Shown: piece by piece, positions 1,998 through 30,837 of the stretch
Position numbering within the stretch: position 1 is the first letter of the stretch
How the letters are laid out: each line of letters begins with the position of its first letter
Assembly (NCBI GenBank): GCA_006384855.1
Contig: VCJN01001421.1
Span: forward strand, 1 to 64,000
Direction of reading: 5' to 3'
DNA from: Tetraselmis striata
Lineage: Eukaryota; Chlorophyta; Chlorodendrophyceae; Chlorodendrales; Chlorodendraceae
DNA: 64,000 nucleotides
Position numbers and translations under genes: made by a program
The notes under the pieces: generated by a model
What the model was told of the DNA's origin: nothing
What the model saw: only the letters and a program-made list of their open reading frames with translations
Databases searched by the model: none

Positions 1998-4696
1998 ATG
2001 GAGGCGGCGGCGAGTGAGACGTCGCCCTTTGCCGCCGAGGAGGACATCGGCAGCGGCGGTGGCAGCTGGTGGACTCGGGCGACGCGCTATGTCGTCGACG
2101 GCAGCTCGTGGCTTAGCTGGGGTAGCGGGCGAGATGCTTTGAACCCCGCAGCCTCAGAGACTCTGCTGCCGCCAGACGAGAGCGCTGGCGTGGCGGAGGC
2201 GGGGCATGCTGTAGAGCGGATGCCGTCGGCGGAGGGCGTCCAGTCGCCGCCTGGCACCTCCCCTCCTCAGTCCGTGCCGCAACCGCACGAGCGCAGCCTG
2301 TCTACGCTGCCAGAGGGACTATACATGGATTCTTGGCAGGATCCGCTTTTTGCAGACCAGTCTGTGAGCCTGCCGGCCTTCCTGATGCCCAAGACCAGCG
2401 CCGCATTGGCAGGCTCCAGCAGGTGTGGGGGGGGGGGGGGGGGGGGGCTTCATCGGGGCGAAATGGAGGGTTGCGGAGGAGTCGTGCATGCTAATTATTG
2501 TCAAACTGAGGCACTGGCGGTGCTTTTTTTACTGCTGCTGCAGCAGCAGCAGTTGCGTCTGGGGCTGGCTGCGCAAGTGGCGCACCACACAAAGGCAGAG
2601 CTGTAAGTGTCGCCCCACCATATGAATTGCGGCACGTTGTGACCCTGGTCGCATCACTAGCACATTGTTCCGAGCTGGAGGGTGGGCTGATGGATGTGTG
2701 TTGCCTGGTGTCATGTACTGTAGCACGCAACGTATATGAGACTGCCATCAATCCGGTGAGCCGATGCTGCCCTGGTCCTGTTGTGTGCCTGTTGCCTGCC
2801 TGCCTGCCTGTTAGACTGGAGGAAGCCCTACAGAGCTCTTTCTCTCCGATGGCTGCCAAACAACGGGAGGGGCTGAGCGTTCATGGATCCATTGCTGCCT
2901 TCTTTTGCAGGATGAAGAGCCCAACACACCGGATATGCTGCACCGTCGTGCGCGCCCTGCCATTCCACACCTTTGTGGGGTAGGGTTACGCATTGTGGCC
3001 GCCTGAGCAGATGTACTTGCCAGCGCACTGACCGCGCCCCCTAACGTCATTGATCTGCCAGGCTACCAGAGGGTGCTGGGTGCCCAGGGCGCGCCAGAGC
3101 TGGACCACTTCAACGCGCAGGAGCTAAATCGCGCATACGTCATGCGGCCACTGCGCATGGCCGCCTGGCTGCTGCTGCTGCTGCTGGGCTACGCTGCCAC
3201 GCTGGGCTGGTGCCAGGCCGGTGTGCCGCAGAAGTGCATGAAAGCGCAGTCACCTGGCATTGCAATACTGTCTGGCATTTCTCAGGTGCTGCAGATGGGC
3301 TTTGTCACAGGCTGGTTTGCGCGCATCACCCACGAGTGAGTCCCAAACCACCCCGCCTGCTTGGCGTCCTGCACCTGACAATAGCAACCGCCGCCTCAGC
3401 CACAACCCACTTGTCTTTGCGCACCCGTAGGAAGCGCTTTGCCTGGCTTATTGCCAAGGAGAACCTGTGGTTCTACGCGGTATTTCTCCTCACATCGCCT
3501 GTCATTGGGCTGATGGCCAACCTGCCAGGTACGGGTGCTTGCTGCGCTGGATATACAGGGCTAACCGTAGGAAATGGAAACTAGGAGTTCCATCCACATA
3601 ATTCACGACATGCACCCCTCCCTACTTCCCCAAGCCTTTCAGCACAGTCTGGAGGACATCAAACACTGGAGCGCAAGCATGGCAGTCGCAGTGGGTGTGG
3701 CAGTGCTGCTGGCGGTGCTATCCATCCTGTGGCACAGTTGGCAGGCGTTCCGACGGGCCCCGGCTGTGGGGCTGGTATTTGTTGGCACCCGATTTGTCAT
3801 CCTCGCCTTCTTTTTTACAGGTGCTTTTCCTTCTCAACATGGGCGCATGCTGTATCTAGATATAGCCGTGTGCACGTACTGCGTAGCCTCTTCCACGTTT
3901 GGAGTTTTTTTCTGATTTGTTTAAAACGGTAGGTACATATGCTTGCTTTGTAGCCTTTTATTACAGTATTGTCCAGCCCGCTGTCATAGATATTACATGC
4001 ACATGTGTTAGAATGTTATTGTCTGTTTATACCAACAATACTAGGCGTGTATATGTATATATATGTGTATATGAAGATAGGTTTGTATATATACCTATGT
4101 GTTATCCTATCATATACATATTATGTATATATGCATATATGAATGTGTGTTTATGTATATATATACACATACATACATATATGTACATATGGATATACAT
4201 AGATATATGTTTATAGACATATACATATATATATATATATATATGCACACACACATGCTGTGATATGCTGGCCAATGCCTGACATGGCTGCCATGCTGTG
4301 CAGTGAAGGAGCTGTCGGAGGATCACCCACGGCACCGGTTCCACGTGTACCCGTACCTGCTCTTGTGGTGGACGAGCCTCTTCTCAGAATACAATCACGT
4401 GGTGTCCGATGCCACCATGGTCACCGGCGCAGCATTCCTGGTCCAGGTGGCCCTGCCTGCTCAAAACTGCCTGACGCCACTCCATCCCGTGAAAGCGTAC
4501 CTTGCTGGCTCTCTGTCGCTGAGCCCCACAGCTGCTGTTTGCAGGGCATCGCCGTCCACTCCCTTGAGGTGGGCAGCCCATGGTGACCAGCCCACTGCCA
4601 CAGGTCAACCCCAGTATGTACTGGCCAGGACCAGTCAGGCCCCATCCGCCAGCAGATTTTCTAGAGGGGTTTCTGTCTTTTGATGCCATGTCCTGA
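1998..4696 (+). CDS. Multi-exon polytopic membrane protein of unknown function
   Basis: Eight exons can be proposed: 1998-2422, 2911-2974, 3062-3335, 3431-3528, 3635-3820, 4304-4446, 4545-4568 and 4604-4696 (stop TGA). From exon 3 onward the phases agree. The exon 1/exon 2 join does not close cleanly, so one boundary there is wrong or a small exon is missing. The product is about 430 residues. An acidic, Ser/Pro-rich N-terminal third (with SWWTRATRYVV) is followed by at least four hydrophobic segments: AAWLLLLLLGYAATLG, FYAVFLLTSPVIGLM, MAVAVGVAVLLAVLSIL and VGLVFVGTRFVILAFFF. A conserved-looking block reads HVYPYLLLWW, LFSEYNHVVSDATMVTG and FLVQGIAVHS. I do not recognise the family. Intron 1 starts GTGT followed by 21 G. 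The gene is convergent with the transferase gene, about 160 bp away. Confidence 0.7.
4040..4256. repeat. AT-rich TATA/TACA-type microsatellite within an intron
   Basis: This stretch inside the intron before the sixth exon of the membrane-protein gene consists almost wholly of TATA, TGTATA and TACATA units. It ends in a (TA)n run followed by CACACACACA. It contrasts sharply with the GC-rich surroundings. Confidence 0.85.
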
Positions 4697-4856
4697 TGTA
4701 CTATGGGCGGTTACAAGAAATAGCAATAACAGGACAGCTGCCCTGCTTGGGCCGTATGGGTAACCGCGACGTGATTGCCCTGCTTTGGCCTCTCCATGAA
4801 ATGACACTGGCTTACAGATTGCATGAGATGTGCGCTGCCTACGGCCTCGCTGGGCT

Positions 4857-6832
4857 CTACCTGCGGTTTTGTGGATGCAGAGCTGTGGCGCCATACGTGC
4901 TGTAGTCGAAGAAATCGAGGCTCTTATGCTGCTTGTATGCGCGCAGTAGCTCCTGTGGTGCCGCCGCAGCACGCTGGCACGAGGGCCTCGCCTGCATAGC
5001 CTCCTGCGGACCAGAACAGCCGCGAGGTCACACATGGCTTGCACACCCCCGGGTGCAAAATGTCAGCGCCAACAGCAATGCTCACCAGCCAGCTGCTGAT
5101 GGCCCCGCCGCAGATCTCTGTCGCGTCTACACCATGGAAATTGCGCCCTATGATGTCGAATCTCTCGATAAACGGCATCAGCACTAGGTCGGCCTGCCAA
5201 GATGACAGATGGGAGAAGGGGGGGGGCTTGTAACTGTGCTTAGAAACACCCAGTGTAGCATGTGAGGGAGAGAGGGCGCTGCCACGTGACACTGCGATGG
5301 CACTACAGGTGGGGACAAGCTTCTCTTTCCGGGAGAAATAGAGGGGGGGGGGGGGGGGGGTACAATAGTCACTTGAGCCCCCAGCAAGAAGGGGCCGCCG
5401 CTCTTGGCGAGTGCCTGCTGCATCTGCCCAAGCGCGGACTCGTATCGCTTCAGCTGAGACGCACTAGCATGTGTGCCGATGCCCCAGAATCTGCGACCGC
5501 CCCGCAATTTGGCGGCGGCAGTCAGTCGCGCGGAGCGTGTACATGAGGCGTCTGGCATGCGTATATGCAAGGGCGAGTATCTGCGCCTCCACCTGCCATC
5601 TCTTCCGGAGGCCATGTCAAGCCCGGATGATACAATGCCAGATGCGGCAGAGATAAGGCTCTCCATCTCGTGGTGGGCTGGGCTACCTGCCTCAGGGCTC
5701 AGAGCGGGCCCAGGTAGCTCGGCATTCAGCACGCTGGGTACCAGAACAGGGGGCAGCACACCAGCCACATCAGCAGTGGCATGGCCATGTTAGGTGGAGT
5801 GCAGAGTGGGAGGTCGCGAGGACAGGCACAGGGCAGATGCAGCTGCTGCCAGCGGCGCTGGTGTCACCGGCACAAGTCGATGCTTTCCACCTCTACACGC
5901 CCCGTTGCACTGAACTCGATGGCAGGTACTAATCCGCGCGGGTTGACTGCTGAGTACCTACAGTCCATGCACGCATGCATGTGCATGAAGCTGAGTAATA
6001 TGCGAGATAGGCAACATACAGCACAGCATAGAGCGACGATGCACGAAAAGCGGACGCACCAGCCTGGTTTGGAGGACAGATCGATGTGAACGGTCTCGAA
6101 GTCCGCCCCCTGTTTGTGAGGGGGCAGGAGTGGGGAACATTTGCCCCAGATACCACGCCGATCTTGGTCATTGAGCGAGGTCCGCCCTCCCGTGTCCTCG
6201 CCCCTATACATCGGAAGATGCAGCAAGTGCCCCCCCCCCCCCCCCCCTCCACCCCGCCTCCTCGGGTGCCCTGGGCGACTTGCCTTCTCCAACAGTGTCA
6301 GCAGCACGCGCTGAGCGTAAGGGCAGAGCATGTGGGTGTAAAATACCAGCTCTCGGTCTCGCACGGGAGATGCGTTCGACAGCACGTCGAGATCCACAGC
6401 GCTCGCGAGTATTGCACCCTGAGCGGTGTGGATAGGCAGGGGGGGGGGGGGGGGCAGCGCTCTCTCACGCGACCCCCTCCCCAAACCTATAGGGCTGCAA
6501 GGAGAAAGAGCATATGGACGGAGTTTGCTCCGCAGGTAAGATTATAGACACCTGCTCACCGTGCTGGCGGCTTTCTCGCTACAGGAGAGCCTGTGCCTAG
6601 CAGCCGGGAATGCTATGAGGGGGGCTCGGCGCCAGCGCAGCCTTGCTGCACCTCTGGCGGAGTCTTGTGACAAGGCGCACAAATGCGACGACGGCGCGCG
6701 CACAACGCGAGCTGCTGGGACGGATGCCGAGAGAGACATTGAGAGGCGCGCCGCAGACCAACGAGGAAGCCCGCGTCGACCTCCGGCTCCGGACCTGAGT
6801 GCGACTTGGTTTGTTGTGTCCCAGGCTGCCAC
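4857..6832 (-). CDS. Glutathione S-transferase (omega/lambda-like), probably organelle-targeted
   Basis: Eight exons, with phases that close to 354 codons: 6832-6560, 6418-6284, 6109-6060, 5957-5868, 5733-5593, 5490-5373, 5193-5086 and 5003-4857. Exon 1 codes for about 90 residues rich in Ala, Arg and Ser, like a transit peptide; an internal Met at about 6739 is an alternative start. Exons 2-4 give the thioredoxin-like domain, with LVFYTHMLCPYAQRVLL. The cysteine of CPYAQR is the expected catalytic residue of Cys-type GSTs (omega, lambda, DHAR). They also give NPRGLVPAIEF, the glutathione-binding cis-Pro turn. Exons 5-8 give the helical C-terminal domain (ALAKSGGPFLLGAQ, ADLVLMPFIERF, FFDYSTYG). 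The intron after exon 2 appears to use a GC donor (GCAAGT). The intron after exon 6 has a long C run 11 nt past its donor. The LINE ends about 100 bp upstream of the start codon. The substrate is unknown; thiol transfer or dehydroascorbate reduction is typical of such classes. Confidence 0.85.
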
Positions 6833-6922
6833 CGACGTCCCCGAGTGCTGACCGGTGACAAATCTGCATCGTGTCCATCGATCGTCCCCATCGCGAACGT
6901 CGCCCGTAGATATATAATCCTT

Positions 6923-6932
6923 GGTCGCTCAT
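6923..6932. repeat. Target-site duplication, 3' side of the LINE
   Basis: GGTCGCTCAT, identical to 11883-11892. It abuts the poly-T (poly-A on the minus strand) end of the LINE. Confidence 0.9.
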
Positions 6933-7181
6933 TTTTTTTTCCGCCCCCGGGACAGGACTGGCACCAGTGAAACCCTTGCAGCGTCTCTACGACGGCCGTT
7001 TAGGCAGCAATCCAGTTACGGAAAGCCCTGAGTAGGCGACGCTCCGTTATAGTCATCAAGCAAATTGCCGAAGCATTTCGCAAGACTAATTGAAGGCCAG
7101 TGACGGAATTTCCAACACTGTTGGATCACCGTCTAAAACACTGCCATCAAAATACCCGGCACTGACCACGAAAGGTCCGCC

Positions 7182-10100
7182 CTACCCGTTTGGGCGTCGG
7201 CCCATTCGAGTAATGCGAGTTGGGGCAAGCCCCAACCCGCGGAGCAAAGCATTTCGGGAGTGCGATACATGTGCAACAAAAAAGGCAATGTGAGGGAGGG
7301 CCTGACGCCATAGCTGGAAAAATTTCCCATTCCCAGTAAAATCCAGGGCGCCGTGAAGGGAGGGGGGGACCCCGCCCAAAATAAAGGCAGTTAAGTCCTC
7401 AGGTGTTGACGCACTAACCTGACTACTAATAAAATCCCTGAACTCCGGAACTAACAACCCAAAATTATGACGGTGATACCCCCACCGCGGGCACTCCACC
7501 AACATATGTTCGATAGTCTCATATTCACCTCCGCCACATGCAGGGCAGTGTTCAAGGAACCGCTCAGGCATGGCATGAATCCGGGCCAATCGGCGGGCAG
7601 TGGGAAATACTCGGGTGCGTAATTGTATCATAATGTGCAACCCGGCCACAACCCCCGCGGGGACACCCACACCGTACTGTGGCAACGGGTTTGACGCATA
7701 GGACGCCTGGACATATATACCCCAGGTGTTATTGCGTGCTAACGATACCGACGATTCGTAACGCGCCCACACCGATGCCTTTACTAGTTTAGCGGCATCG
7801 CGCGCGGCTAGTGACCTCCACTCAAGTGGAAGGTGCGCCCCCTCAGCTAGCCCTACGTTCGCCCTAGCTAGTCGATCTAACCACCGCACAGTCCCCGACG
7901 TCCACGTGTTAGGGCGCGCCCGACTTGGCTGATCTACTAAATGGGTTATACATGTATTCAAGTCGGATGCTTTAAGGAACGCCCGAGCCCGTGCCGCAGC
8001 GGCCGTAGCCTCTATGGGCGCAATATCCAATTCCCGCATCATCGGTGCAGTGGCTACCCCAGGGGAGTTTTTACCTACCCCAATGAGGCAACGCAAGCAC
8101 TGATTGAGTACAGTTTGTAATTTATTTGCGCCGCTAGTTCTATCCATGCCCCATACTTCACACCCATAAGTTAAAACCGGCAGTACACAGGTTTTAAAAA
8201 CCGACACACGCACATTAATAGGGATTATGTCCCGTCCACCGACTAATACCGAATCGAGCGCCTCAATAGCGCGTTTACCCTTCTTAACCCGGTCGTCTAC
8301 TATGTGTTGCATACCTAAATCCGACTTAATGACCGTACCCAAGTACCTATATTCATTTACAACCGGTACCCGTTCCCCCCCAAGCTGCCATCGGGCAGCT
8401 TGTTCGCGTAACGCGGTCTCGTCGGAATATCGGCCTAATGCCATCACCCCACACTTAAGTACCCCAAACCCCATAAAATGATGCTCCGCCCACTGCGAGA
8501 AGTGGGCGAACATGGCATGCAGGTTATCGAACGAGCATGTGATACCAACAGCGTCGTCCGCGTATAACTGACCTGGCACCCTTAGTGGTTGCCTTGCCGC
8601 TAATGTGTCAGTGCACCATGGAACATCACATCCTAGATGTTCTACCCCATCGAATATATCGTTTATAAATATGTTAAATAGGATGGGGGAAGCGGGGCAT
8701 CCCTGTCGGAGGCCACGCTCTATGGGTATGGGGTCTGATAGTGTTCCCGGGGCCACCCCTGTCTTGACCCGTACCATACTATCCCTGTATAAAGTTTTAA
8801 TGAAGGTAAGCATATGACCCGAAACTCCTATGGCTTGTAGTTTTAGGAATAAAAGCTCATGAGGTACGGTGTCATATGCCTTCCTAAAGTCAATAAAACC
8901 CGCGTACGTGGGTAGACCTGCCGCTTGGCGACGAGCCGCGATATCGAACAAGCTGGCGACTTGCATGGGGCCCTCCTCATTCCGCATAAAACCCGCTTGC
9001 CAACGGCGGATTATCCCTTTAGCTTGGCAGACGTCTTGCAAGCGTTGGGAAATGATGGTCATAAGGAGTTTCATAGCGGCACCCATAATCGAAATACCCC
9101 TATAATTGTCCATAACGGTCGCGTCGCCTTTCTTGGGCACCGATACTATGGCCGAGCTACGCCACTGCTGGGGGATATAGTTCTTAGTCCATATCCCGTT
9201 AAGAAAGGCCAGCAATGCCTTGCCAAAATGGCTATTCGGGGCGTATATCGCCAATTTTAAAGCCTCTGCAGTGATCCCATCCTGCCCCTGCTGGGCCTTA
9301 TTATTTTTTAAACGCCTAAGAGCCTTGACTAGTTCCTCCCATGTTATATGCCCATTAACCCCGTTTAGTGCGGGGGCAATGGGTGGGGATGTACCGTGTC
9401 GGTGTTCCCACGCCGCACGGTATATCGCCACCCGTTGTGCTAGGGGGTGGGGGTCACGCAGCAGCTCCCGATAGTGCCGCGCCCAGCACGCATTGATTTC
9501 GCCCGGCTCGTTATGAAGTACCCCCGATACCGGATCGCGTACTGGCTGGTCGTTCGCGCCCTCGAATGAACCCTGCCCCTTACGGAGAGAGCGCGCCCAC
9601 TTCCAGAACTCCCGTCTCCCACCACCCTTCTTAAAATCCTGAACCGCTTTTAGCACGGCCCGCTCCCTCTGGCGGCGGCGGTTATTACGTACTAGTGTCC
9701 GGACCCTATGCCGTGCAGCAGCATAATGTGCCGACGCTAGAGCGGCATCCCGAGGGCCCCTAGTCCCCCGGCACGCCATAAAGGCCATGCGCCGACGATT
9801 AATCGCACCTAGGATAGACCGTTGGAGCGGCGGCCCTAGGCCACGACGCCTGGGCTTGGTAACAGCCCCTACCCCACGCGCCGCCGACCATATTGCCTGG
9901 ATAAAGTGGTCGGCGCCGGTGTCTAGGGATCCCCCCCCTCCCGAAGGCCCGCCGTCTACAGGTGGGTCATCTAGAGGGGTGAGCACCGCGAACGGATTAG
10001 CGGTGACAAAATCGTGGAACGGGTTGGGCCATTCAGAGGGAGAGTCACCGTGGGCCGGTTTGGGAATGGACCTTGCAGACAGGCGTTCATGCAGGGGAGG

Positions 10101-11210
10101 TGGACAGGCATCCTCACGGATGGCGCCCACGGGGAAAGAAGACAGGACAGGGAAGTGATCGGAGGTGTCCCAAGAGTAGTCCACCCATGCCGAGGGCGAG
10201 AGAGGGGGGGGAGGGCCTATGGTGGGAGGCCATGCGATGAAGTGGTCGAGAACGCGGCAGCTGCCCCTCCGGCAAGTACCCCGTTCGCGCGCCGATGCAT
10301 CCCGCGGCCACATGGGCTTACCGCCGGGAAGGCACCGCCAACGCCTGAGTAGAGCCGTCAACTCCCTTTCATCCATGTTCCAATCCCCCCCCACCACAAT
10401 CATATCCCTCGGATAACTCGTCCGAAGCCGCGCCAACTCTTCGCGCAGGCGGTCCCGATACGGTTCCCCCTGTGAGCCGGTGGGCAAATAGGCCGAGATA
10501 AATATAGTGGCCGCGGAGTCACTGCAACCTCCCCCCACCCGGACACAGGTCCAACATGGGTGGGGCGCGCCGACTGCCCGCGCCCGGTACGGCGACCGGA
10601 CTAACACACAACACCCACGTTCCGATGCAACGCGGTCCCCGAACGAATAGTAGTCAGCGTACCCATTAAAACGCACTCGCATATCGGTCGCCCTAACCGT
10701 GGTCTCCTGAATGAGCAGAACATCTACAGATCGCTCGATCAGCTACGCGCCAACATCCTCCACCTTAGAAGACAACCCATTCACATTAAGCGTCGCAACG
10801 CACAGGTGGGCGGGCATGGGAGGGAGGGGAAAGGGCAAGGGGTGGGAGGGAGGGGGAGGGCGGGCGGCGTGGCGATCCCAGTACGAGCGGTGTTCCCGCA
10901 AGTACCAACCCCACCGGCATGCAAAACGCTGTAAGCGCTCGCGGACATGCGCACCCTGCCCTTGGGTATAATACACATCAAAGCGCACTAGCCCATCCCG
11001 CTGCAACACACGATCGATCTTCGGAATGGCCGAGGGCCGGCCATTAAACGCCCGATCGACGCGGCTCCAGAAGGCAGGTAGTGGCGACGGGTCCCCCCAA
11101 CAACACACACGACGCAGGGACGCCCCAGCGCCCTCAGCCAAGTGCCCAACCGTCCAAGGGCGAACCCCCGTCACTATGACGGCTGCACCCGGTGGCGCGC
11201 GGTTGCCCAT
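7182..11210 (-). pseudogene. LINE polyprotein: endonuclease, reverse transcriptase, zinc knuckle; one in-frame TAG
   Basis: The frame runs 1,343 codons from ATG at 11210 to the stop at 7182, broken only by TAG at 10743-10745. The part upstream of the TAG (155 residues) carries a possible RNA-binding region and then CVATLNVNGLSS, the start of an AP-type endonuclease. Downstream follow LLIQET (catalytic Glu), GGDWNMD and TSDHFPV, all endonuclease signatures. The reverse transcriptase shows FIDFRKAYDTV, GLRQGCPASPILFNIFIND and YADDAVG. Near the C-terminus, CPACGGG...ETIEHMLVECP is a CCHC-type knuckle. I see no RNase H domain. The TAG lies inside the endonuclease just before its catalytic Glu, so an unassisted product starting at the next ATG (10682) would lack the N-terminal Asn and Glu motifs. 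Readthrough, a recent mutation or a base error could each explain it. Confidence 0.9.
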
Positions 11211-11553
11211 ATCGGGGCCAACCCTACCGGAGCTACGGTTATGTTATACCAGGCGGGAAAACTCGGTAATGCGGTAGGGTCCTGGCAAACATTCCCTAGC
11301 GCGAGGTACAAGGGTTACGGATCCCCGAGTCGCCGGCCGGACAGGGCCGACAGCAAGGGGCGGATACCGCTCGGTTAGGGACTAGTTTTTACGCGATGGG
11401 GGCGCTAAGGCCTGCCGGTTTGACCGCGGGAGGGCGGGCGGGCGGGCTGGGGCAATCTTGCCTGCGAAACGGAGCCGGGTTGCACCAAGAATCCTGTCCC
11501 GTCCTCGTGGCGTCCTGTCCTGGCCTTTTCTGTCCTCCGACCTGTCGGCGGGG

Positions 11554-11555
<2 letters not shown>

Positions 11556-11587
<32 letters not shown>
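11556..11587. repeat. 32-nt G homopolymer in the LINE 5' leader
   Basis: This is the longest homopolymer in the window. It lies in the non-coding leader of the LINE, where it reads as poly-C on the transcribed strand. Confidence 0.9.
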
Positions 11588-11882
11588 CGCTCGACGCAAG
11601 CAATAACTTAGTCGGTTAGTCCCCTAACCGCGCGACCGATCGCGGGATCCTCGCCGACACACGCAACCGCGACAACCGGTAAAACCCGCAAAGCTGCGCG
11701 GCTAGTCCCGAAGGAGGGCCGTTGGAGTGCTGATGATCGGCTGGCTGGCTGACTGGCTGGCGCTGGGGGGCTGGCGGGCTGACGGGCTGACGGGCGGTCG
11801 GCTCGGCGGAGCGGACGGCGTCGCGAGTACTTAACGGCAGTACTGCGCTTAACACAGGGAAAAAGCGGCTGAGAAGTGAGAA

Positions 11883-11892
11883 GGTCGCTCAT
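11883..11892. repeat. Target-site duplication, 5' side of the LINE
   Basis: GGTCGCTCAT, identical to 6923-6932. Confidence 0.9.
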
Positions 11893-12028
11893 GCTTTGCC
11901 TTCACCCGACTCTATCCAGTTCAAAATCCAGCATCGACGCTTCCTGCGTCCCTGTTAGTTCTGTTTGTAATGCGCATTTGTTAAAGCCCTGATGGAATAA
12001 AATGACAAAACCCAGCAGCATCGACGCC

Positions 12029-13412
12029 TTTTTCCCGCCTCCAGGACTGGCACCAGTAAAACCCTTGTTCACTCTACGACCGCCGTTTCGGCAGCGATCC
12101 AGTGACGGAAAGCCCTGGGTAGGCCACGCTCGGTTATTGTCAAATAGCCGAAGCATTCTAATTAAAGGCTAGTGAATGAAATTACCAACACTGTTGGATC
12201 ACCGTCGACAACACTGCCATCAAAATACCCGATACGATCTGACCACGAAAGGTCCGCCCTGTATCCGTTTGGCCGTCGGCCCATTCGAGTATTGCGAGTT
12301 GGGGCAAGCCCCATCCCGCGGAGCAAAGCATTTCGGGAGTGTGATACATGTGCAACAAAAAAGGCAATGTCAGGGAGGGCCCGACGAGCCATAGCTTGGA
12401 AATTTTCCAATTCCCCGTATAATCCAGGGCGCCGTGAAGGGAAAGAGGATCCCACCCACAATAAAGGCATTAAAGTCCTCAGGTGTTGACGCAATAATCT
12501 GACTACTAATGAAATCCGTAAACTCCAGAAGTAACAACCCCAAATTATGACGGTGATACCCCCACCGCGGGCACTCCACCAACATATGATCGATAGTCTT
12601 AAATTCACTTCCGCCACATGCACGCCAGTGTTCAAGAAACCGCTCCAGCATGGCATGAATCCGGGCCAATCGGCGGGCAGTGAGAAACATTCGGGTGCGT
12701 AATTGTATTATAATGTGCAGCCCGGCCACAACCCCCACAGGGACACCCGCACCGTACTGCGGCAACGGGTTTGACGCATAAGACGTCTTGACCCTAGGTT
12801 TTAGTACAAGCTAACGTTGCCGACGATTCGTAACGCGCCCACACCGATGCCTTTACTAGTTTAGCGGCATCGCGCGGCTAGTGACCTCCACTGAAGTGGG
12901 AGGTGCGTCCCCTAAGCTAGCCCTACGTTCGCCCTAGCTAGTCGATCTAACCACCGCACAGTCCCCGATGTCCACGTGTTAGGGCGCGGCCGACTTGGTT
13001 GATCTACTAAATGGGTTATGCTTGTATTTAAGTCGGATGCTTTCAGGAACGCCCGGGCCCGTGTTGTAGCGGCCCGTGTTGTAGCGGCCCGTGTTCCCTC
13101 TATGGGGGCAATATCCACTTCCCGCATCATCGGTGCGGTGGCCACCCCAAGGGAGTTTGTACCCACCCCAATACGGGTCCCCAAGCACTAATTGAGTACA
13201 GTTTGTAGTTTATTTGCGCCGCTAGTTCTATCCATACCCCATACTTAACAGCCGTAAGTTAGAACCGGTAGTATGCCCGTTTTAAAGACATGCACACGCA
13301 CATTAATAGGAATTATATCCCGTCCACCAACTAATAGCGAATCAAGCGCCTCAATGGCTCGTTTACCCGCCTTCTTAACCCTTCTATGTGCAGCATACCC
13401 AAATCCCGCGCT
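12029..13412 (-). mobile_element. 5'-truncated, decayed second copy of the LINE
   Basis: It is homologous to about 6933-8310 of the full element in the same orientation, starting with the 3' poly-A (TTTTT at 12029) and ending at about 13412. It keeps the C-terminal knuckle region and part of the sequence after the reverse transcriptase. It is broken by substitutions and small indels, for example a triplicated CGTGTTGTAGCGGCC segment at 13060-13090. It lies only 146 bp from the 5' end of the full copy. I found no convincing target duplication. Confidence 0.88.
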
Positions 13413-14470
13413 TCATTCTCTCACAACCCTCTCACCCACGCGTGTTGGTCTCCCTCCAACACGCACTATTTCCAGGCATGCGCTCCGCTTCTCGTGGGCT
13501 TCCAACCCAGTGTAGAGCTCCATCTGGCGGGAGTAGAGCTCATGATAGTGGTGGGACATCTGCCCCTACACCCCTGTCAGCTGCGACATCAGCTAAGTCA
13601 TGAGATGCGCGCCATATGGTTCGTAGCCTTGCCAAGCGTTGGATTGACCGGTCGCTCTCTGCGAGCCGGCCTTGTCATCCCTTGACATCAAAGCCAAAGC
13701 ATTGACGGACTGGGTTCGGACAGTGGTGAGCACTACTCGTCGTGACAGTGCCTACGGCGGGTTGAGAAAGCTTGGGTCTAGAGACCCACTACCTCCCGGC
13801 TATGAAGCTTAAGAGATGGCCCCGAGCTCTCCCTTTTCCGAGTCCTCCACCCATGTGTGGGGCACTGAAGGGACACTAGGGGCTGACCCAACTGTCCAAG
13901 ACGGTATCCGACTGACGTGCACTCCCGCCGAGTGCACGGCTTTCGCCCGCAACGCTGCGTAACGCTCCGGCACCTGTGTTGTGCACCGCTCGCGACGCTA
14001 TGTAACGCTTCAGTTGTACATGCGGTTGTCCCACTTTATCGCGCACTTATCCGAGCCGAACCAACCGACATTTACCAATTTAAGACGATGCACTCAGTGC
14101 CTATTGAGTGCACCTGCGGTTAGTTGAATGGCATCCAATATTATTGCCGTATACCCGCGCAACAGTGAATTCCCGCGTGTTGTGTGATTTTTGGGGGCAA
14201 GACTGTTGTGGGGGGATGTTAATGGTTTTCTGCCATGATTTCCCGCCATTCGTCCACAAGTTTGTTTACGTACTTCGTGTCGTGCTGAATGTAGCCGCCG
14301 CCCCACACCCATGCCCGATATGCGCAGTCGGGGAATAAATTGCCACCGAAAGTGGCTTCCGTTCCCGACACCGCCATGTAGTCATCCCCTGCGTCAGGGA
14401 AGGTGAGTGCCCCCCCCCCTCTGCCTTTCTCCGTGCCTTGATAAAATTTGGCTGGGGTATTTCTTGATTG
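13413..14470. other. Gene-free stretch
   Basis: I see no coding exon, RNA gene or recognisable element here. Open frames are short and lack protein-like composition. Confidence 0.4.
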
Positions 14471-15420: not shown

Positions 15421-15672
15421 AAATTTCGCGGCCGTCCAACTTGTGTCAGCACCCCGCAGGCATGTTTAGCCCCTTCCTCAAAAATCAATCTTGTATGCCT
15501 TTCCGACTGTCCGTCTCACCCCCTTCCCGTGCAGCGTATGGATGAAGCGCTTATACCTTGAAGGATGGGATTGCCCGTACTCGCGCCAATCTGAAGCGTC
15601 TTTGCGATCTCCATGTCAAAGCGTACGTGACAAGGAGATAGGACATCGACAAGGGTGGCCGATAATCCGCGC

Positions 15673-18600: not shown

Positions 18601-19053
18601 GCGCCTCATCCAGATGAGTACTAGTAGGCGTTCCGCGGGGCGGCGCACTGGGGTCGTCATGCAAATAGCTCCGAAACCAGTCTGATGAACCGCGGCACGC
18701 GGCTTGCAGTGGGCCTCACATAGCGCGCAATGGGGGCGCACATGTGGGATATAGCATATGCCGGGCGAGGCAAACACGTCGTATCACGCCGCCGCACGCC
18801 GAATGACCGCTTGGAGCCGTTCCGCGGGGTGGCCGATCATCCGTCTTGCGCCCGTATAATGTGCATGTGCCCGTACACGGCACGGGCTGCACCGCATCGT
18901 ACGAACTGCGCGCCGAGGAGACGCTCTCTGGGGAAGTACGTGTCGGGCGAGACATACGCGACGCAACACGCCGCGACTATTCATGCCGACCGCCCGGCGC
19001 CGTTGCGCGGTGTAGAATAGCAAACCGCGACGCGGTGCGAAACTTATGTGTAT
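15673..19053. repeat. ~955-bp tandem satellite, left part of the array
   Basis: The marker GGGCGCATATCGATCGGGT recurs at about 15680, 16620, 17580 and 18544, giving unit lengths of 940-964 bp and about 3.5 units. Units are roughly 90% alike by eye. The array is interrupted at 19053 by CACTA element A and resumes at 32348. Long open frames on both strands (up to 251 codons on the minus strand) repeat from unit to unit. They reflect GC-rich repetition and show no recognisable domain. Confidence 0.93.
19051..19053. repeat. TAT target duplication, left of CACTA element A
   Basis: TAT here and at 32348-32350. Removing the element and one TAT restores GTGTATGTGCCCAAAGCAC, which occurs uninterrupted in the satellite unit near 17123. 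A 3-bp duplication is the rule for CACTA (EnSpm) elements. Confidence 0.88.
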
Positions 19054-19512
19054 CAATGTGAGATTCAGATGTGACATACGGGTGACGAAGCACTACTACC
19101 AGCGACTATTATTTATCCGTGGAGGCTGATGCGGGTGGCGGCACGTCCATCCAGTTACGTGCGAGTACATCCGGCGTTATTGCCGGCGGGCGATAAATCC
19201 TGTTTGTAATCATTGTGGTAGTCTTACTAGTGCGGTGCCGTGTTACATGGCACTGACGTATAAGGTACAAGGTTGTCCGTGTAGTACCGGGTAGTACGCG
19301 ACATATTTATTAAGCCGGTACCGGGTATCGGGTAGGGCGCGCGTGTATATGTGCGCGAGTGCGCGACGAATATGCGCACCGGTGTGCAGCAGCGGTGTGC
19401 ACGACATGTAGGGGCGGAACGGGTGAGTGTCCGCCGCTCCACCCAGCGCCGCAAATCCCCGTGCGTGGGCACCCAAGACCCCCCCCCCCCCCCCCCCAAT
19501 AAACCTGCCGCC

Positions 19513-22512
19513 ATGTCAAACAGTGGTAATTCCCCCGAGCTCCTCGTTGAGGAAGATGCGACGACGAGGTTGCAAGCCTACCTCGAGCGGTGGCTACAGA
19601 ATGGTGGTACCTATGACCCCGTACGCATGGAGCTGTGGAGGCTTCTCGGAGAAGACGCCGCGGAGGCCTTGCTGAGAAAGTTCCCTGATGTGGTCCCGAC
19701 GCCAGACCCGGAACTGAACGCTCCCGGGCTGCTAGAGGTGGGTTTGTTGTCGCACATCGCACAAGACCTGGTTGGGTTTAGCGAAGGACGCGGCGGAGCG
19801 GAAGGGAGTACAAACGTCGTGGTTCTGAGCATGGTGTCCGGGAACGAGGCCTATCTGCGCAGGAAGTTGTTGGGAGAGGGCGATAGCATTGGGCAGTGGG
19901 AGATGGACGTGCGAGCGCAGCAGGCAGCCTTCCGGCGGGCCCGTTGCTTCCAGAACCCTCCCCCGGCGGCCCAGCCCTTATCGGACGTGCGCACCTTCGT
20001 GATTCCGGTCTGTGTCTCCGTCCACCTCACTGCCTTGGTGGTGGACGGTGCGGAAACCGAGCCCCTATTCTTCGACTCGATGATGAAAGAAACCAACTCG
20101 CAGCACACGCTGATCATGTCCATGTTCCGTGTGTTCGTGACCCGGATGATGAAGTCGCATGATCCGGGGGTGCCTGCCGGCTTGTGCTGGGAGAACGTGA
20201 CACACCTCCTGAGAGTAGCGGAGGCGGAGGCTCGCACTATCCCCGTGGCGGAGGAGCAGCTACAGGATGACATTTGGACCTGCGGGTGGCGGGTGATGTT
20301 CTTCATCTACTGCTTGCTGAAGTTGAAGCCCGAGGACGAGCGTCGCGCTGCACTGTTGAGCGCGGGGACGTGCAGAGAATTCAGCACGAAAGCCCTGGAA
20401 AGCTTTCGCAACAACGTTGTGCAGCAACGGAGTGCCCAGGACGGCGTCATCCGAGCTCCTACTGACACGGACATCGTCCCCATGGACTTGTGTGCGCGCG
20501 CGGGTGGGCAAGCCCGAGGATGGCCTGCGACCGTTCACGCCCTGGGCTGCAAGGCGCATTGCCCAGGTCCGCCCCCCCGCCCCTCTTGGCATGCAGCACT
20601 TGGCAAGTAGCATGCAACGTTGACATACAGTGGGGGGTGAGCACGTGCGTGGGCCATGCAACCCGCAGGTGCGAGGCTGGAAGTCTGTCTCCATGGGGGC
20701 GACAGTGGCGCTAGTGTAAACATTCCTGAACCAGTATCCGTCAGGCCTCGTCCAGCAAGAGGCGGCCGCGGGGAAAGCACCGGAGCTGGCGGTGAGGCCG
20801 GTACGGGAGGTTCGCATGAAGGGATGCACGGGCATCCTCCATGCTCCAGATGGTGTGTTCTTTGCAGCGGCCGCGTTCAATACCGCCAGCGGCAATCGGC
20901 GTACCTCGAAGTGCAAACGGTGCGTGGCGGTTGAAGCTGGTCAGCGGCGCAAGTCTACCAAGAGGCTGAAAGGAGCGGGAGGTTATTCATGCGTGCCACC
21001 CGCCGTGCATGAAGGCGGCACCCCAATGGAGCTGATATCTCCCTACCAAGCCCTGCGGGCGCGTTTCATCGGCAACAAGCGGTTGCAATCGGGCCAGCCC
21101 ACGCCGTTTAAGTTGGACCTGAGTGACGCCCAAAAGACCTTGCTGGAGATGGCGATGGAGTGTCTGGTCGGCATGTCAAGCAAGCAATGGAACGAAATGG
21201 GCTTTGGCATTCAGGGCGGGCGCATCCAGGTGCAACGCCCCCCTCCCCCCCCCCCTATAAACATGATGCCTTGCTGCTGCCGATGCCCGCCTTGGCTTGA
21301 CGTGTGTGTGCCCCTGACACCGACAGGTCATCCTGCCCCCGGAAGACATGTTGGACATTGCGGAACACACGCAGGTGATGCCGTATGACGGTGAAAAGGA
21401 GGGCAAAGTCGACCCGTGGAAGCTGTGGCATTGGGCAAGGAGTACGCCAGAGACCTTGGTCGGCAGCAGAAGGCAGACGCAGATGAAGAGGTGCCTTCCC
21501 GCCCCCCCCCCCCTGCTCCCTTCAACCCCTGACCCGTGCGTCGCTTATTCTGAGCGTGTGCCTTGCAGGAAGGCCTTGTTTGCCGCCTTGCTTGAGGTGC
21601 GGCGCGCTTTCGTGGCTGGTGCCGAGAAGGCCGGCGAGCTAGCACAAGGGTTTTGGTCGTGGCCGGTGATCTTGTTGCTGTTCACCCCGGCGAATGCCCC
21701 CGCTCAGATCACCCACATTGATGGGCAGGCTCCAAATCTGCAGGCCATCCTTGCATGCACGTGCCACTGCCGCCCCACAGAGGTGTACCGCGGGCCAGAA
21801 GTGAGCTTCACAGATGCCGTGAAGCACATTCGGTACCGGGTGCGCCCCCCCCCCCCTCCAGGCCGGTGGCGGAAGCGGGGGCGGGGGCGGGGACTGAGTG
21901 CCATCCATGTGTTGACATGAAAAGGGCCACGAGAATCACCGCCTCACGGAGAGGACGCTGGCGGAGACAGATCCGGGAGCTGCCGACTTCATCACGAGCC
22001 AGAAGAACTTGATGCAGCCCCTGGAGGACTTGGAGCGTGGCATGGGTGTCCCCGAGGAGAACAAGCCCTACATGGAACAAGCCCTACATGGGTACATGTT
22101 TGGGTCGGACACGACGCACCGCGGGCCCGTGGGCGCCCCAGTTGACCTGGCCGGCGGTAACCCGTGCCTCAAGTGTCAGGGGCGTGGCAATGTCCGCTTG
22201 TACGGGCAGGGGCAGCTTCTGGGACTGCCTGGCTGCGGCCGTGCGGACGACCCTACCCAGTACACGCCGTTCCTGGCAGCCTACAATGAGGCATTATACC
22301 CACACATCACCCCCCGTAGTGATGCTGCGGAGAAACGCAACCACGAGTTGGCGGCGCAGTATGTGGCCCACTTTGGGGATGATGCTGTGTGGCCAAACCA
22401 TTTGTACAGTGACGAGGACTACGCCAGCATCCATGCCAGGGCGAAGGAGCTGCGGGTTGTTGTTGAGGCTGCGGCTCCTGCCGCTGCCGCTGCCGCCTCC
22501 ACCCCGCCGTAG
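19513..22512 (+). CDS. Ulp1-like cysteine protease (C48) fused to a long unknown region, encoded by CACTA A
   Basis: Five exons, phases closing to 833 codons: 19513-20503, 20745-21229, 21327-21490, 21569-21839 and 21925-22512. The start ATG lies in a GCCGCCATG context. Residues 165-260 carry the C48 signature: His171 in SVHLTALVV, Asp188 in LFFDSM, Gln251 and Cys257 in QDDIWTCGW. The Gln-to-Cys spacing of six residues is as in Ulp1/SENP proteases. Residues about 330-832 are unrecognised. They include CKRC, a DPWKLWHWA block and PCLKCQGRGNVR, possible metal-binding sites. Ulp1-like proteases are known passengers of CACTA, Mutator-like and KDZ elements. Their role there is unproven; removing SUMO from host or transposon proteins is a reasonable guess. 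Three of its four introns carry a C run close behind the donor. Confidence 0.8.
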
Positions 22513-22829
22513 ACGATCGGGTCTGGCAGCACCGCCCGTGCTTGTAAATAAGCGACAATGGAACACGGCATGCTCCGGTTGTACTCCTACAGTTCCTCCA
22601 CGTGGGCGGGGGGCGGGGGGGGGGTCCTGTCCTTATTACTTGCATCGTTGGACGTGCTGGATATGGAGGTAACCGGGCACATCGCGTGGTTTCGGAGCAG
22701 TTCATGCGCGCCTCCTCGTCTTGTTTGCAATCGTCGCCCTAATCCAATGCAGGGTGAGTAGCGGGACACTGTGCCCCCCCCCCCCCCCCGGGTTTATGTA
22801 AACAAATATCTAGCCGTGAATGCGCCGCA

Positions 22830-24240
22830 ATCAGTACCCAATGAGCGGGGTATGTGACAGTGGTTTCGGAGCAGTGCAAGCATTCCGTGCGTGTGCACAA
22901 GCACGTACGACTGGGAACGAGGCGGGGGTTACGGATGGAGTGCATTGGCGGTATGGGTGCATAGAATAGCGTGTCCCTGGGGTTTTGGCTGCATCAGACG
23001 CCGTATTCCCATCCATCCGGCACGGAATGTCCGGTTTTCACACATTTGTGTGTGAATATAGTGTGAATATTACGCGTCTTTTACGCCGGGTGGATGGGCG
23101 TCCGGCGTCCGATGCACCCCAATTATTTGCAGCACACTAGTATGTGCACCGGCCAGTGCACTCCGCAAGCCCCGCCTCCATCCGCGTCGGAACCGGTAGT
23201 AAGTGTTGTTGTGTGCGCACATCGTGACAACATTACACGGTGGCAATTGCAATTAGCGGTGGATGATGTGAAGGCGTTTTCGAAATCGACAGAGAATGAG
23301 GCGGTGCTGGCGGAGTGCATTGGCGGTGCATAGAATAGCGTGTTGCTGGGGTTTTGGCTGCATCGGACGCCGTATTCCCATCCATCCGGCACGGAATGTC
23401 CGGTTTTCACACATTTGTGTGTGAATATAGTGTGAATATTACGCGTCTTTTACGCCGGGTGGATGGGCGTCCGGCGTCCGATGCACCCCAATTATTTGCA
23501 GCACACTAGTCTGTGCACCGGCAGTGCACTCCGCAAGCCCCGCCTCCATCCGCGTCGGAACCGGTAGTAAGTGTTGTTGTGTGCGCACATCGTGACAACA
23601 TTACACTGTGGCAATTGCAAATAGCGGTGGATAATGTGAAGGCGTTTTCGAAATCGACAGAGAATGAGGCGGTGCTGGCGGAGTGCATTGGCGGTGCATA
23701 GAATACCGTGTTGCTGGGGTTTTGGCTGCATCAGACGCCGTATTCCCATCCATCCGGCACGGAATGTCCGGTTTTCACACGTTTGTGTGTGAATATAGTG
23801 TGAATATTACGCGTCTTTTACGCCGGGTGGGTGGGCGTCCGGCGTCCGATGCACCCCAATTATTTGCAGCACACTAGTCTGTGCACCGGCAGTGCACTCC
23901 GCAAGCCCCGCCTCCATCCGCGTCGGAACCGGTAGTAAGTGTTGTTGTGTGCGCACATCGTGACAACATTACAAGGTGGCAATTGCAAATAGCGGTGGAT
24001 AATGTGAAGGCGTTTTCGAAATCGACAGAGAATGAGGCGGTGCTGGCGGAGTGCATTGGCGGTGCATAGAATAGCGTGTTGCTGGGGTTTTGGCTGCATT
24101 AGACGCCGTATTCCCATCCATCCGGCACGGAATGTCCGGTTTTCACACATTTGTGTGTGAATATAGTGTGAATATTACGCGTCTTTTACGCCGGGTGGGT
24201 GGGCATCCGGCGTCCGATGCACCCCGAATCTCACCAACAC
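22830..24240. repeat. 368-bp satellite of palindromic units inside CACTA A
   Basis: The marker GAATAGCGTGTTGCTGGGG (variants included) recurs at about 22963, 23333, 23701 and 24068, giving units of 367-370 bp. Within each unit the half containing GGTTTTGGCTGCATCGGACG resembles the reverse complement of the half containing CGTCCGATGCACCCC, so each unit is an imperfect inverted repeat. The array is flanked by inverted copies of a GTTTCGGAGCAGT-containing segment (about 22860 and 24345). Confidence 0.9.
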
Positions 24241-25003
24241 GCTACTCTACGAACCCCCAATGCACTCCGCCAGCCCCACCTCGTTCCGCGCAAGTCCTAC
24301 GTTCCATTGTATGTATATACATACGTACATGTACTGCTCCGAAACCAGCCCAAACTTAATGAGTGCACAAGTGTAAATGGGGGGGGGGGGGGGGGGGGGG
24401 GTGGAAGCGGGGCATCCACTCACACATACCCCGGCGATGCATGACAGGTATTACATGCCGTGGCGGGTCGGCGGGCCGACCCGGCGGGGGGGGGGGGGGG
24501 GGGGGGGGCGTCGTCGGGGCTATTCAACTACACGTGCGACAGTGTCGTTTCGTGGAACAGTATATGTGCCCGGCCTCATTTATACCGCCCCCTTCACGCG
24601 CTGCATGGTCCACCCCTTAGAATTACTTAGCACAAACCGCCATTACTTAATAGGAACCTAGCACAGCCAGGCTTATATGCCCGCTTTGCCGATCAACTTA
24701 TACGCACTTCCCGTCCCTCAGCCGCCGGACATGGGGGTTAAGCCGCCAGCCTCGGCAGTTGCTTAGCAAGACTTGGCATCCCGTACATGTCCATGGCTTC
24801 GCAGCTCTGCCGCCGGCACACGCCGAGTCCGGCGCTTGCTAGCGCCGGGTTACGCATGCATGCACGCACGGTAATATGCCGCCGACGCCGCCACGCTTAC
24901 TTCCACCACCTTCGCCAGCCGCAGCTTCGCACGCCGTTCCGCCGACATACGAAACGCACGAATTCTCCCCCCCCCCCCCCCCCCCCCGCCCAGTCCCCGC
25001 GTC
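24241..25003. other. Spacer of CACTA A with two long G runs and one C run
   Basis: G runs lie at about 24380-24401 and 24487-24508, and a C run at about 24966-24987. A minus-strand frame (MSAERRAKLRLAKVVEVSV...) between about 24960 and 24850 is kept, in longer form, in both arms of element B (about 59290-59572 and 62353-62042). It may be a small exon, but I see no domain and the frames differ in length between copies. Confidence 0.45.
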
Positions 25004-25913
25004 ATGTATAATATATTCGAGGCGACTATGCGGGGCGCAGCACACGCCGCGGCGTGGGTCGGCGGAGCGGCGGGCGGCGGGAGCCCTAATGGCCGGGCAG
25101 TATCCACACCCACACCGGCACCGCCGCTCACCTCCGACGCGGATGAACCGCCTCCCAAAGGAAACATGCCGGTTGGTGGTAAGCGCAGCAGGCGTGGGGT
25201 GCCGGTGCCGGTACCTGTGCGACGGAGCTGTCGCGTCAGGAACCGCACCGCAACCGGAACCGCACCGCATGTGGAGCAACACCTGGCGGTGCCGGCCCCA
25301 CCTATGTCTAGGGCCACCTCCTCACAGCACCCCGCCACGACGGCGTCGGCCACCGCCGACGGCGCCGTTGCGGGGGGGGGACGCCCTGCCAGGCGACGAT
25401 GATGCGCCTGATGCGCCGCATCAGGAGGCGGAGGAGGCCGTGGTAGAGGCGACTGATAGGGATGAGGGGGTTGTCGAGGCGAGCGAGGCTGCGCTCGCGC
25501 CACCCGCCCCGCAGCCACCTGCGGGACATGCCGACTTGCTCGTCGCCATGTTGACCGGAGCACTACGAGCAGTGGCGGGAGGCGGCCACATGCACTATCA
25601 TGTGCGTGTCCTGGCCGGACGCCCGTCATGCGTGTACTGCGGCCAACGGACGGACTGGGAGTGTTGCTGCGACGGCACCCCGGCTTTGTGCGGCCCCAAG
25701 TACCCATGCATGGCGACCCATCAGCGGGCAGTCCCCTGCCCGACCACGGCCGCGGTGAGGGCGGAGTTCCGCCATGCCAGGGACGCGTTCCACGACGCGA
25801 CTCGCGCCGCCGTGTCTGAGGCTTCCGAGAAGGCACGCGCGGCTGGTAGGGTGCGCAGGGTGAGGCGGCGGACGGCCCAGGAGATGAAGGAGAGCGAGAC
25901 ATGCCGTCAGTGA
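25004..25913 (+). CDS. Zinc-ribbon protein encoded by CACTA A, possibly frameshifted
   Basis: A first frame (25004-25402) begins MYNIFEATMRG and is Pro/Ala/Arg-rich. It must shift at the G run near 25372-25380 to join the second frame, which runs to the stop at 25913. The second frame has an acidic linker and then a Cys/His cluster of about 40 residues: RPSCVYCGQR, WECCCDG, ALCGPKYPC and ATHQ. This C-x2-C...C...C...C...H pattern resembles the C-terminal zinc ribbons of PiggyBac-type and other transposases. A basic tail (RVRRVRRRTAQEMK) follows. Element B carries a second copy at 58349-59256 (-). A DNA-binding helper role is inferred only from context. Confidence 0.6.
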
Positions 25914-26050
25914 GGTCGGGCGCAATGTTATTGGGTGGGGCACACGGGCGTGTAACACTTGCACTTTGCGCGTACTGCTGGGTTACATCCAGGCGGCGTC
26001 ACACTATGCAACCGGAAAGGCTGCGTTGCTACTGCAAACGATGCTAAGCC

Positions 26051-29000
26051 TCACTCGGTAGCAACCGCTGCGCCGCCTATCCCACAGCCGCTGCCCCCCC
26101 CCCCCCCCCCCCCTCGCGCACCGTCCTGCGACCTTGCGTGGATCCCCGCCACCAGCAGCTCCCCGGCGTCGACGCCCAAGTCGGCAGCCTTCGCGGAGGA
26201 CATGTCGGCAGGGGCCATGAGAACAGCCACCTTGCGGATGCCCGGACCATCTAGTAGGACAAGGGCCTCCTCCCCGCCGGAACCACCGCCGCCGCCCGGC
26301 ACTCTCCACAAGTCCAAGCCCACGGCAGTGTGGGCTCGTTCCGGCGTCCACACCGTACACAATGCAGCCCGAATGGGCCGCGCGCTGGCACGGCTGTCGT
26401 CCGAGTCAGCCCCTGGCGGGGGCGGTGGCGTGGCAAGGTAGAAGTGTTGAGCTCGCGCGACCATGGTGGTGTACTTGGCGTCTTCGCGCTCCGCCAGCAG
26501 GTTTCTTGGCAGCTCCTCCTCGCTCTCCAGCTCCTCGGTGGTGTAGGGGGGTGGGTCGGCGTCGGGGACTTGCTTCAACATCTTGTACACAAAGAAGGAG
26601 TTGTCTCTCGACGTCTCCCCGTCTCCCCCCCCCCCCCCCGGTGAAGCCGGGGCTTGTCGCCGTTGCGAAGCGACGCCGCCTTGTAGGCCAGGAGCCCCCC
26701 AGCGCCACCGCTGGGGCTCCAGCCCGGCAGGACCGCACCCCACCCCGCGAGTATGGGTGCATACGAGTGCGAGCCCTGCACCGTACGTCGGACGTCGTCC
26801 AGCAGCTTCTCCAAATGGTCCTTGAAGTCCACCGCGTGCTCCCACGCAGCGGATGCGCTCCCAACCAACCGGATGGGCGTCTCCACGGCGCCGGGGCCTG
26901 CGTCGTCTGGGGCCATGTACCCCTGTGTGTGTGGGTGGGTCGCTGTGAGTGCGAGTGTGAGTGTATGTGTGTGTGTGTGTGGGTGGGTGGGTATGGGTGC
27001 ACGTGGCTGAGGAGGCAGCAAGAGGCGGGGGGGGGGGGGGGGGGGAGAGACCTTCTTGTTGGGGTTGGGTTCCCGGTAGAGGCGATGCGCCTTCAGGCGG
27101 TTGATCTGCTGCGCGAAAAGGAGGTCCCTCATCATGGTCTCGCAGACATTCTTCGGCAGCACGCGCTTGGCGCCCGCCTTCAAGAAGCCCATGAGGTTCT
27201 CCATCCACAGCTCCGCAAGCGGGTGCCCGCAAGCCAGCATCTGGTGGATCATGCGGCACACCGCCGAGTGCAAGTTGGAGACGAGGAGCGACACGAAGCC
27301 GTTTCCCTCAGCCAGGCGGGCATACACGGTGATGTCCGCTAGGTATCGAGTCCTCCCCTCCCTGGTGAGCGCGTCCACCTGCGCCTTGCGCTCAGGGCCG
27401 TCCTCCTCCGTCACCACGTTCTGCAACCCCCACCGCGTGACGAACCACACAGCTCCTTGCAGGCGCTTGTACATGTGCCCAAGCACCCCCAGCTGCGACA
27501 CCGCACGCATCACCGCTGGGGACGCGAGCTCCTTCCCGGTCATGATCGCCTTCACCCGGGCCTCCTCGAACAGCGGACCGGCGGTAAGAAGGGAAAACGT
27601 TTCCGAGTGGTGCCAGCAGTCCTCTATGACCCAGCCGGACAGCACCGTCACCTTGCCTGACCCTGCAGTCATGAAGGGGAATGCCGTCACGCCCCCGCCC
27701 CGCCCACCCGCCCACGCCCATGGGGGGGGGGGGGGGGGGGGGCTTACCTTTCGACTTCTTGGACACCGCAAACGAAGGGCGCAACCCGCGTCCAAAGTTG
27801 CTGGGTATCAGGACTAAAGCCTTGCGCCGGTCTTCCTGCTTCATAGCCCGAAATCCAACGTGGCCCAGCACGTCGAGGAAGTTCCTCCAAAAGTCCTTTC
27901 CCAAGCCCAAAAAGCACAGGTGGTCCGGCGCGAGGGGGAAGAGGTTGACCATGCTGACATAGCCCAGGACCACAGGCACCTGGCACACGCCATGGCAGCC
28001 GGTGTTCTGCTTGGCCTGCTCCAGCCGGGTTGTGTTGAACGCACGCCGGGCAGCGGGGCTCAGTTCGCCGTCCTCATCCCCATCAAGGTCCGACTTGGCC
28101 AAGTCCTCCTCTATCTGGCCGATGACGCCCATCTGCTCCAGCATCTGGTCGCCGGAGAGCAGGAGGCAGCTCGCGCCTGTGCGCACAGCCTGGAACTCTA
28201 CGCCATCCACCCTCTGGATGACGTCCTTTGCATACCCCGCAGGCGCCACCTTCACCGTGCCGTCCGGGCACTCCACATGGCTCCGCAGACGGCACCAGGG
28301 GCAACCTCTGAGCTGGCTAGGCCCCCCCCCCGCACAAAGATCTTTCGTCTGCCCTGGGCGTCGCACACCCACATACCGAGGAAGACCTTGTGCACGAACT
28401 GTTCCCCCCCGTCTGCGGGGGTGACCCTCACTCCATGCTCGCCAAGCACCGCGAGCTCGTGCAGCACCTCTAACAGTATTTTGCCCAGGTTGGGCGGCTC
28501 CGGGGGGCCGATGAGTGCGACTGGGTGCCAGTTGCTCCTGGAGGTCAGCATGTGGGGCGGCATGTCCTCACACCTGATCCCAACCCCGGTGACAGACTGG
28601 GTGGCCCGAAGGTGCGACAGGAAGCCATCATCTGTGAGTGTGTAGATCCCGTTGTCGGCATGGAGGAAGTCTCCCGCGGCGAGGCCGGTGCCGTGCCCGC
28701 CTTCATTCAGGCGCTCCGCCTCCGACGAGGCGCGGAAGGCGTTGATAGACACGTCCGTCCCCTTCTTCCAGCAAGCGTACCACACAGGGTCTCGGAACCA
28801 GCCCTTGATGATGTCCGCCACGCTCAAGACGTACCAAACCCGTGCAGCCGTGAGCTTCAGGGACTGCGGCATGCGGATAAACCTGTCGGCATTGCACTCC
28901 GGGCAGTGCTGGTCGGGGAGGTTCGCCCATTCGGCAGCCTTCCCGGGCGCCCCGCTGAACGCCACGCACCCCTTGGGGCACATGTGCCGGACATATCTGG

Positions 29001-30184: not shown

Positions 30185-30837
30185 GCCTGCTGCCGCGCGC
30201 GCGCGGGGCGGGGGGGGGGGGGGGGGTTGAGAGTTGGGGTGGATGTAGCCCACCACCGGCAGGGAGCACAGATGCGAGTGCGCGGCTGTCCGCGCTTGAT
30301 TCAGCGGTGAGCGGCGGTGACCGTGAGGCGACCCCGTACTTCATGCGCGTGCTGGGGCGTTACACAATCATCAGCAGTTAGGGCGGCTGCATTAAAACGC
30401 GCACCTACGAACACCACCTACCGCCTACCAACCACCTAAGCTACCGGACCACCTACATCCGCCCACACCTCCGCCCGTCGTGCCGCACATCGCCGCACAC
30501 AACGTGACGCACAACGTGCCGCACATCGCCGCACACAACGTGCCGCACATCGCGCGCACACACGTCGTGGGGGCGCGCGCCCGGGACTGCACCGATACAT
30601 CGTACTACTACTCGCGCTGCGACTACGCAAATAAGCGTCAATACACCGGGCTAATATCGGGTGTATATCGCCGCTTATCTTTATGTTCACGCACACCTAG
30701 CGACGGCAGCACTTGCCCACTCCGCGATATGTATATCGCGCAGCAGCGCCGCGACGGTACGGACGCGCGACGCCGCCTGCTTCGCAAGGATATCAATCAC
30801 AAGAGGCGACGAAGTGTCACCAGTTGCACCACCCACC

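Follow-up and report, generated by a model that had tools for sequence, protein, structure and literature searches.

Long C runs close behind intron starts in the green alga Tetraselmis striata

C-rich sequence a few nucleotides (nt) behind a donor (5′ splice site) is described as a splicing signal in human introns, and long G/C tracts and intron repeats are described in nematodes and green algae. Here we report on long C and G homopolymers near intron donors in Tetraselmis striata, beginning with a stretch of 64,000 nt (contig VCJN01001421.1, positions 1 to 64,000, assembly GCA_006384855.1), which is called the window in the following. A sequence-only reading of this window had proposed that introns of host and transposon genes alike start next to long C or G runs, and that these runs could act in donor choice, mark how introns arose or be sites of slippage. 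In a minigene of human SMN2 intron 7, Cs inserted at +10 raise exon inclusion with the length of the run, and C-rich motifs beside splice sites are tied to PCBP1/2, named as likely binders (PMC8789036). In other human introns C-rich motifs serve as intronic enhancers (PMC2481429). Caenorhabditis elegans has 396 G/C tracts, four of them in exons, whose position within introns is unbiased, and G tracts in Caenorhabditis number 84 on the non-coding strand and 47 on the coding strand (PMC2211496). In Chlamydomonas and Volvox, tandem repeats of introns are enriched toward the intron ends in a U-shaped profile, with GT/AC as the top motif (PMC3887541).

T. striata resembles each of these in part. 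A C-rich tract stands a few nt behind inferred 5′ splice sites, as in the human enhancers; the human work, however, concerns a few Cs inserted into one intron (PMC8789036), whereas here 10–35 Cs occur in many introns, with a putative function. With Caenorhabditis it shares long homopolymers, avoidance of exons and more C than G on the sense strand, and many long, nearly exon-free G/C runs were indeed found here. The lack of a position bias within introns was not: against the 396 tracts without such bias in C. elegans (PMC2211496) stand ∼100,000 runs of at least 12 Cs with a bias toward donors. Repeats enriched toward an intron end are seen in the two other green algae and, for the donor end, in T. 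striata, but those of Chlamydomonas and Volvox have GT/AC as the top motif and lie at both ends (PMC3887541), whereas here C runs lie at the donor end, with P = 0.19 at the acceptor end. To say that no named system exists for the pattern was therefore too strong, as C-rich intronic splicing enhancers and green-algal intron-end tandem repeats have been described. The literature searched yielded no account of an alga with poly-C enriched on the donor side. Exon-avoiding tracts with C on the sense strand and intron-end repeats were already on record, and what is new is that very long runs, C runs most clearly, crowd on the donor side; a role at the donor is proposed for them below.

Placement of the runs relative to donors

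C runs just inside intron starts are commoner than chance, and G runs less so. Introns were predicted by a gene finder based on codon usage, which scored donor positions −3 to +6 only and which, after retraining, gave a small set of 68 introns, 59 of them outside the window. On their sense strand these 68 introns hold 17 C runs versus 9 G runs of at least 10 nt, which are small numbers. Seven of the 17 C runs started within 20 nt of the donor against 1.37 expected, a count reached in 1 of 20,000 random draws (P = 5e-5), and outside the window 5 of 15 did so against 0.96 expected (P = 0.0013). Among G runs outside the window it was one of eight against 0.34 expected (P = 0.30), and within 40 nt of the acceptors of all 68 introns there were five runs against 3.2 expected (P = 0.19). 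C runs inserted into exons produced a false donor within 20 nt in 2 of 300 trials, so the gene finder is not drawn to runs. Compared with homology alignment of the glutamate synthase genes, which bear introns in this assembly, it set the same donor in 7 of the 8 introns of one gene and in 2 of the 5 of a second, 9 of 13 in all, and 3 of the 4 missed introns have a GC donor or are shorter than 64 nt. Since the excess is also present in predicted host introns, the pattern is common to host and transposon genes, as had been claimed.

Genome-wide motif counts agree with the intron test. The donor consensus CAGGTRNG, split as CAG|GTRNG at 11 of the 68 predicted donors, was found before C12 (a run of 12 Cs, other runs being written likewise) 654 times at a gap of 1–9 nt, 300 times at 26–34 nt and 241 times at 61–69 nt; the reversed-pattern controls at the same gaps were 133, 94 and 111, and the density-based expectation was 153–168. 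CAGGTGAG occurred near C12 89 times against 21–23 expected. These expectations, derived from a 260-kilobase (kb) sample that includes the window, are rough because the flanks of C runs differ in composition; moreover, the G-poor 5′ side of C runs disfavours the chance occurrence of a G-rich donor motif there. For 20 near sites drawn from the 100 matches listed, the coding score was positive in some frame upstream in 10 and downstream in 2. The acceptor-like YGCAGG just after C12 numbered 497 against ∼834 expected (reversed control, 300 against 572), i.e. there is no excess directly at acceptors. An excess near donors across the genome, the absence of which had been named as grounds for giving up the idea, is hence present for C runs both in the motif gradient and in the placement of runs within predicted introns.

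Near G12 the same motif was counted 307 times, about twice the density, at the near gap alone; the G-rich GTGGG accounted for 42 of 100 of these sites among the matches listed versus 27 of the 100 listed for C12 (hand count). The composition behind donor-like words in the 260-kb sample was flat, with too few true donors among them. GTGAG alone was also tried as a donor marker (1462 sites near and 713 far, against 256 and 972 in the reversed controls) and was set aside for CAGGTRNG, because CAG precedes just 89 of the 1462 near GTGAG. GTGAG before G12 (2158; reversed control 991) was dropped, as 28 of 100 matches listed belong to a single repeat family, in which GTGAGCGGTGAA leads into a G run (hand count).

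Long G/C homopolymers are a class of their own in this genome, the assembly of which comprises 224,097,584 bases in 2903 contigs, with a G+C content of ∼58% in the 260-kb sample. The window holds 41 G/C versus 2 A/T runs of at least 10 nt, and the sample 136 versus 5; 100 of the 136 G/C runs measure 14–27 nt, and their density is one per 1.6–1.9 kb. For C runs of at least 12 nt we estimate 98,000–113,000 on both strands of the whole genome. Where coding sequence was called by codon use, 4 of the 136 runs overlap it with C on the sense strand and none with G. The C runs are polar and ragged at the 3′ end, with a mean C fraction at 2–9 nt of 0.48 on the 3′ side versus 0.37 on the 5′ side (134 runs of the sample). 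An Rfam scan of the window gave no match.

Introns of the window and run lengths between copies

Eight introns of the window had been listed as starting next to a run. All eight runs are present where they were said to be, and the well-supported cases among the sites are all C runs; donors were inferred from protein match, comparison of copies and codon use. Three sites belong to gene A of a transposon (+ strand), for which we compared 21 copies, i.e. that of the window and 20 of 39 other scored copies. Intron 1 (21230..21326) has C11 at 21245–21255 behind an interrupted C stretch, and the frame changes across it from f1 to f2; intron 2 (21491..21568) has C12 at 21502–21513, and an open frame spans this intron in the window copy; intron 3 (21840..21924) has C12 at 21845–21856, with a change from f2 to f0. 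The runs behind these donors, that of intron 2 included, differ in length among the 21 copies, including by amounts that are not multiples of 3, whereas a difference of this kind from the window is seen in 7 of 84 exon pieces (four per copy), and GT is retained at 62 of 63 donors (by eye). This free change of the runs against stable exon pieces supports the donors at 21230, 21491 and 21840 well.

Slippage, one of the roles suggested for the runs, is thus seen directly as length changes among the transposon copies, and likewise between two glutamate synthase contigs. The same glutamate synthase gene is found on contigs C379 and C2190 (L055, L057) with small differences, including C23 versus C22 in intron 1, which suggests that the pair are haplotypes or a duplication. 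Unlike these intron-bearing copies, contig C15 shows an uninterrupted glutamate synthase match at 19869–24203, with an open frame of 1582 codons, and this suggests a bacterial contaminant or a transfer.

Gene B of the transposon lies on the minus strand. Its intron at 27657..27747 (acceptor 27657 or ∼27663) starts with GTAAG followed by C21 (27722–27742), and the donor at 27747 is supported by a change of reading frame across the intron as well as by the gene finder. The intron at 26923..27051, with GTCTCT and then C19 (27027–27045), is plausible only: the gene finder calls it, but the donor is weak and one frame stays open across the site. The donor at 28335 (minus strand) was misplaced, as the intron proposed would span just 28 nt; two copies of the transposon within the window differ there by one G, and the frame is kept in neither. 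An intron in this place probably starts at 28376 instead, with G10 at +46: a candidate of 71 nt (28306..28376, GTATGT...CAGAG) unites two frames as ...HKVFL-GCPWC... when joined by eye. The second transposon copy (55231–60558, minus strand) corresponds to 23666–26850 and 28166–30356 in two long blocks 93–98% identical, and the stretch 26850–28166 is absent from it. Pfam searches with both transposon proteins gave no family above cut-off.

In host genes, the intron of a glutathione S-transferase (GST)-like gene on the minus strand is real, though its donor had been set at 5372. A join at 5363 (GTACCC) gives Pfam GST_C_2, which spans the junction, an E-value of 8.9e-10, compared with 8.9e-4 for a join at 5372; hence we place the intron at 5194..5363, where GTA is directly followed by C18 (5343–5360) and the run begins at +4. 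For the site at 2423 (+ strand; 2423..2447, GTGT and G21) the evidence is split, as the gene finder calls a donor at this position, but G21 equals seven codons and an open frame continues across it as far as GTAAGT at 2603; Pfam on this first gene of the window gave no family above cut-off. For G runs the near count is twice the density, whereas the intron test was not significant (P = 0.30). G runs as proven donor partners were rejected, given the misplaced 28335, the split evidence at 2423 and a count of 307, at twice the density, that covers the near gap only. A donor-like site absent from the list, AAG|GTGAGTG followed by C10, lies at 14403 (+ strand), and one frame stays open across the 120 nt examined in front of it.

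How the runs may have come to lie behind donors

The cause is probably that intron starts were already C-rich and tolerate, or perhaps use, runs in splicing. In 44 introns free of runs, the C content at +7 to +16 was 0.40 compared with 0.30 inside, and the nine glutamate synthase introns alone gave 0.41 compared with 0.26. The fraction of +7 to +20 stretches with a seed of at least three Cs (C3+) was 0.455, compared with 0.228 for interior windows of 14 nt; for at least four Cs (C4+) the fractions were 0.136 and 0.073, and for G4+ 0 near donors versus 0.041 in the interior. G/C homopolymers of ∼10–35 nt abound in this genome, drift in length between copies and are nearly absent from called coding sequence of the sample. 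In the mechanism that we propose, the C-rich zone behind the donor would act as a splicing enhancer, which a poly(C)-binding KH protein may read or which may keep the donor free of structure. Slippage would keep lengthening this zone, where the growth of runs would be harmless or favoured, and G runs on the sense strand would be disfavoured. That slippage expands a donor-proximal zone acting as an enhancer is our tentative choice, with a probability of roughly 0.45, and the role in donor choice named at the outset is plausible, given the effect of poly-C at +10 in the human intron.

Several points weigh against this choice. The evidence for an enhancer role comes from animals, and even there poly-C at +15 of SMN2 intron 7 suppresses splicing, for which the authors blame a GCACC silencer created by it (PMC8789036); here GCACC is present at some donors (e.g. 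L009, GTGCGCACCC; L051–L053). In transposon copies L047 and L049 the run eats into the donor (GTCCC), which looks like damage. The zone is not C-only, as G3+ is denser near donors as well (0.250 versus 0.136). Finally, the excess near donors was measured as density, ∼2-fold for seeds and ∼5-fold for runs.

The main rival is that runs are a neutral by-product of C-rich seeds: donors would be C-rich for an unrelated cause, and mutation alone would draw the seeds out with no effect on splicing. The enrichment of both C3+ and G3+ seeds near donors is what this predicts, and so is the drift of run lengths in the 21 transposon copies and between the glutamate synthase contigs (C23, C22). But the run excess is larger than the seed excess, albeit in small samples, and the C-richness itself would still want a cause; we regard this explanation as a serious one that is nevertheless rather doubtful. 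A different order of events, in which a C run grows downstream of a latent AG|GT within an exon and is neutralised by being spliced out, would make run-initial introns young and fits the C run that begins all three introns studied in gene A, and probably two of gene B, together with the rarity of exonic runs (the 4 and 0 of 136 given above). Introns with a donor-proximal C run are, however, of ordinary length (median 186 nt, n = 7, versus 138 nt in the 44 run-free introns), and we consider it improbable that run growth in coding sequence creates young introns in this lineage, as well as that poly-C then became their donor enhancer.

Chance combined with selective listing would also place a few runs near donors at the density observed, and the original eight sites lend themselves to this view, with 5372 and 28335 misplaced, 2423 split and three taken from one transposon gene; the genome-wide gradient and the intron placement test make it very improbable. 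Long-read assemblies do not give homopolymer lengths reliably, and sequencing might have inserted or lengthened the runs. Against such an artefact, which we think hardly credible, C runs recur at matching places with differing lengths in the 21 transposon copies and in two gene copies on different contigs.

Near C12 there are ∼500 CAG|GTRNG sites above density, and hundreds to a few thousand of the ∼100,000 long C runs would lie directly behind donors, with lengths that vary naturally. The genome of T. striata is thus a ready-made series for relating poly-C length to donor use, and the growth of repeats to the origin of introns.

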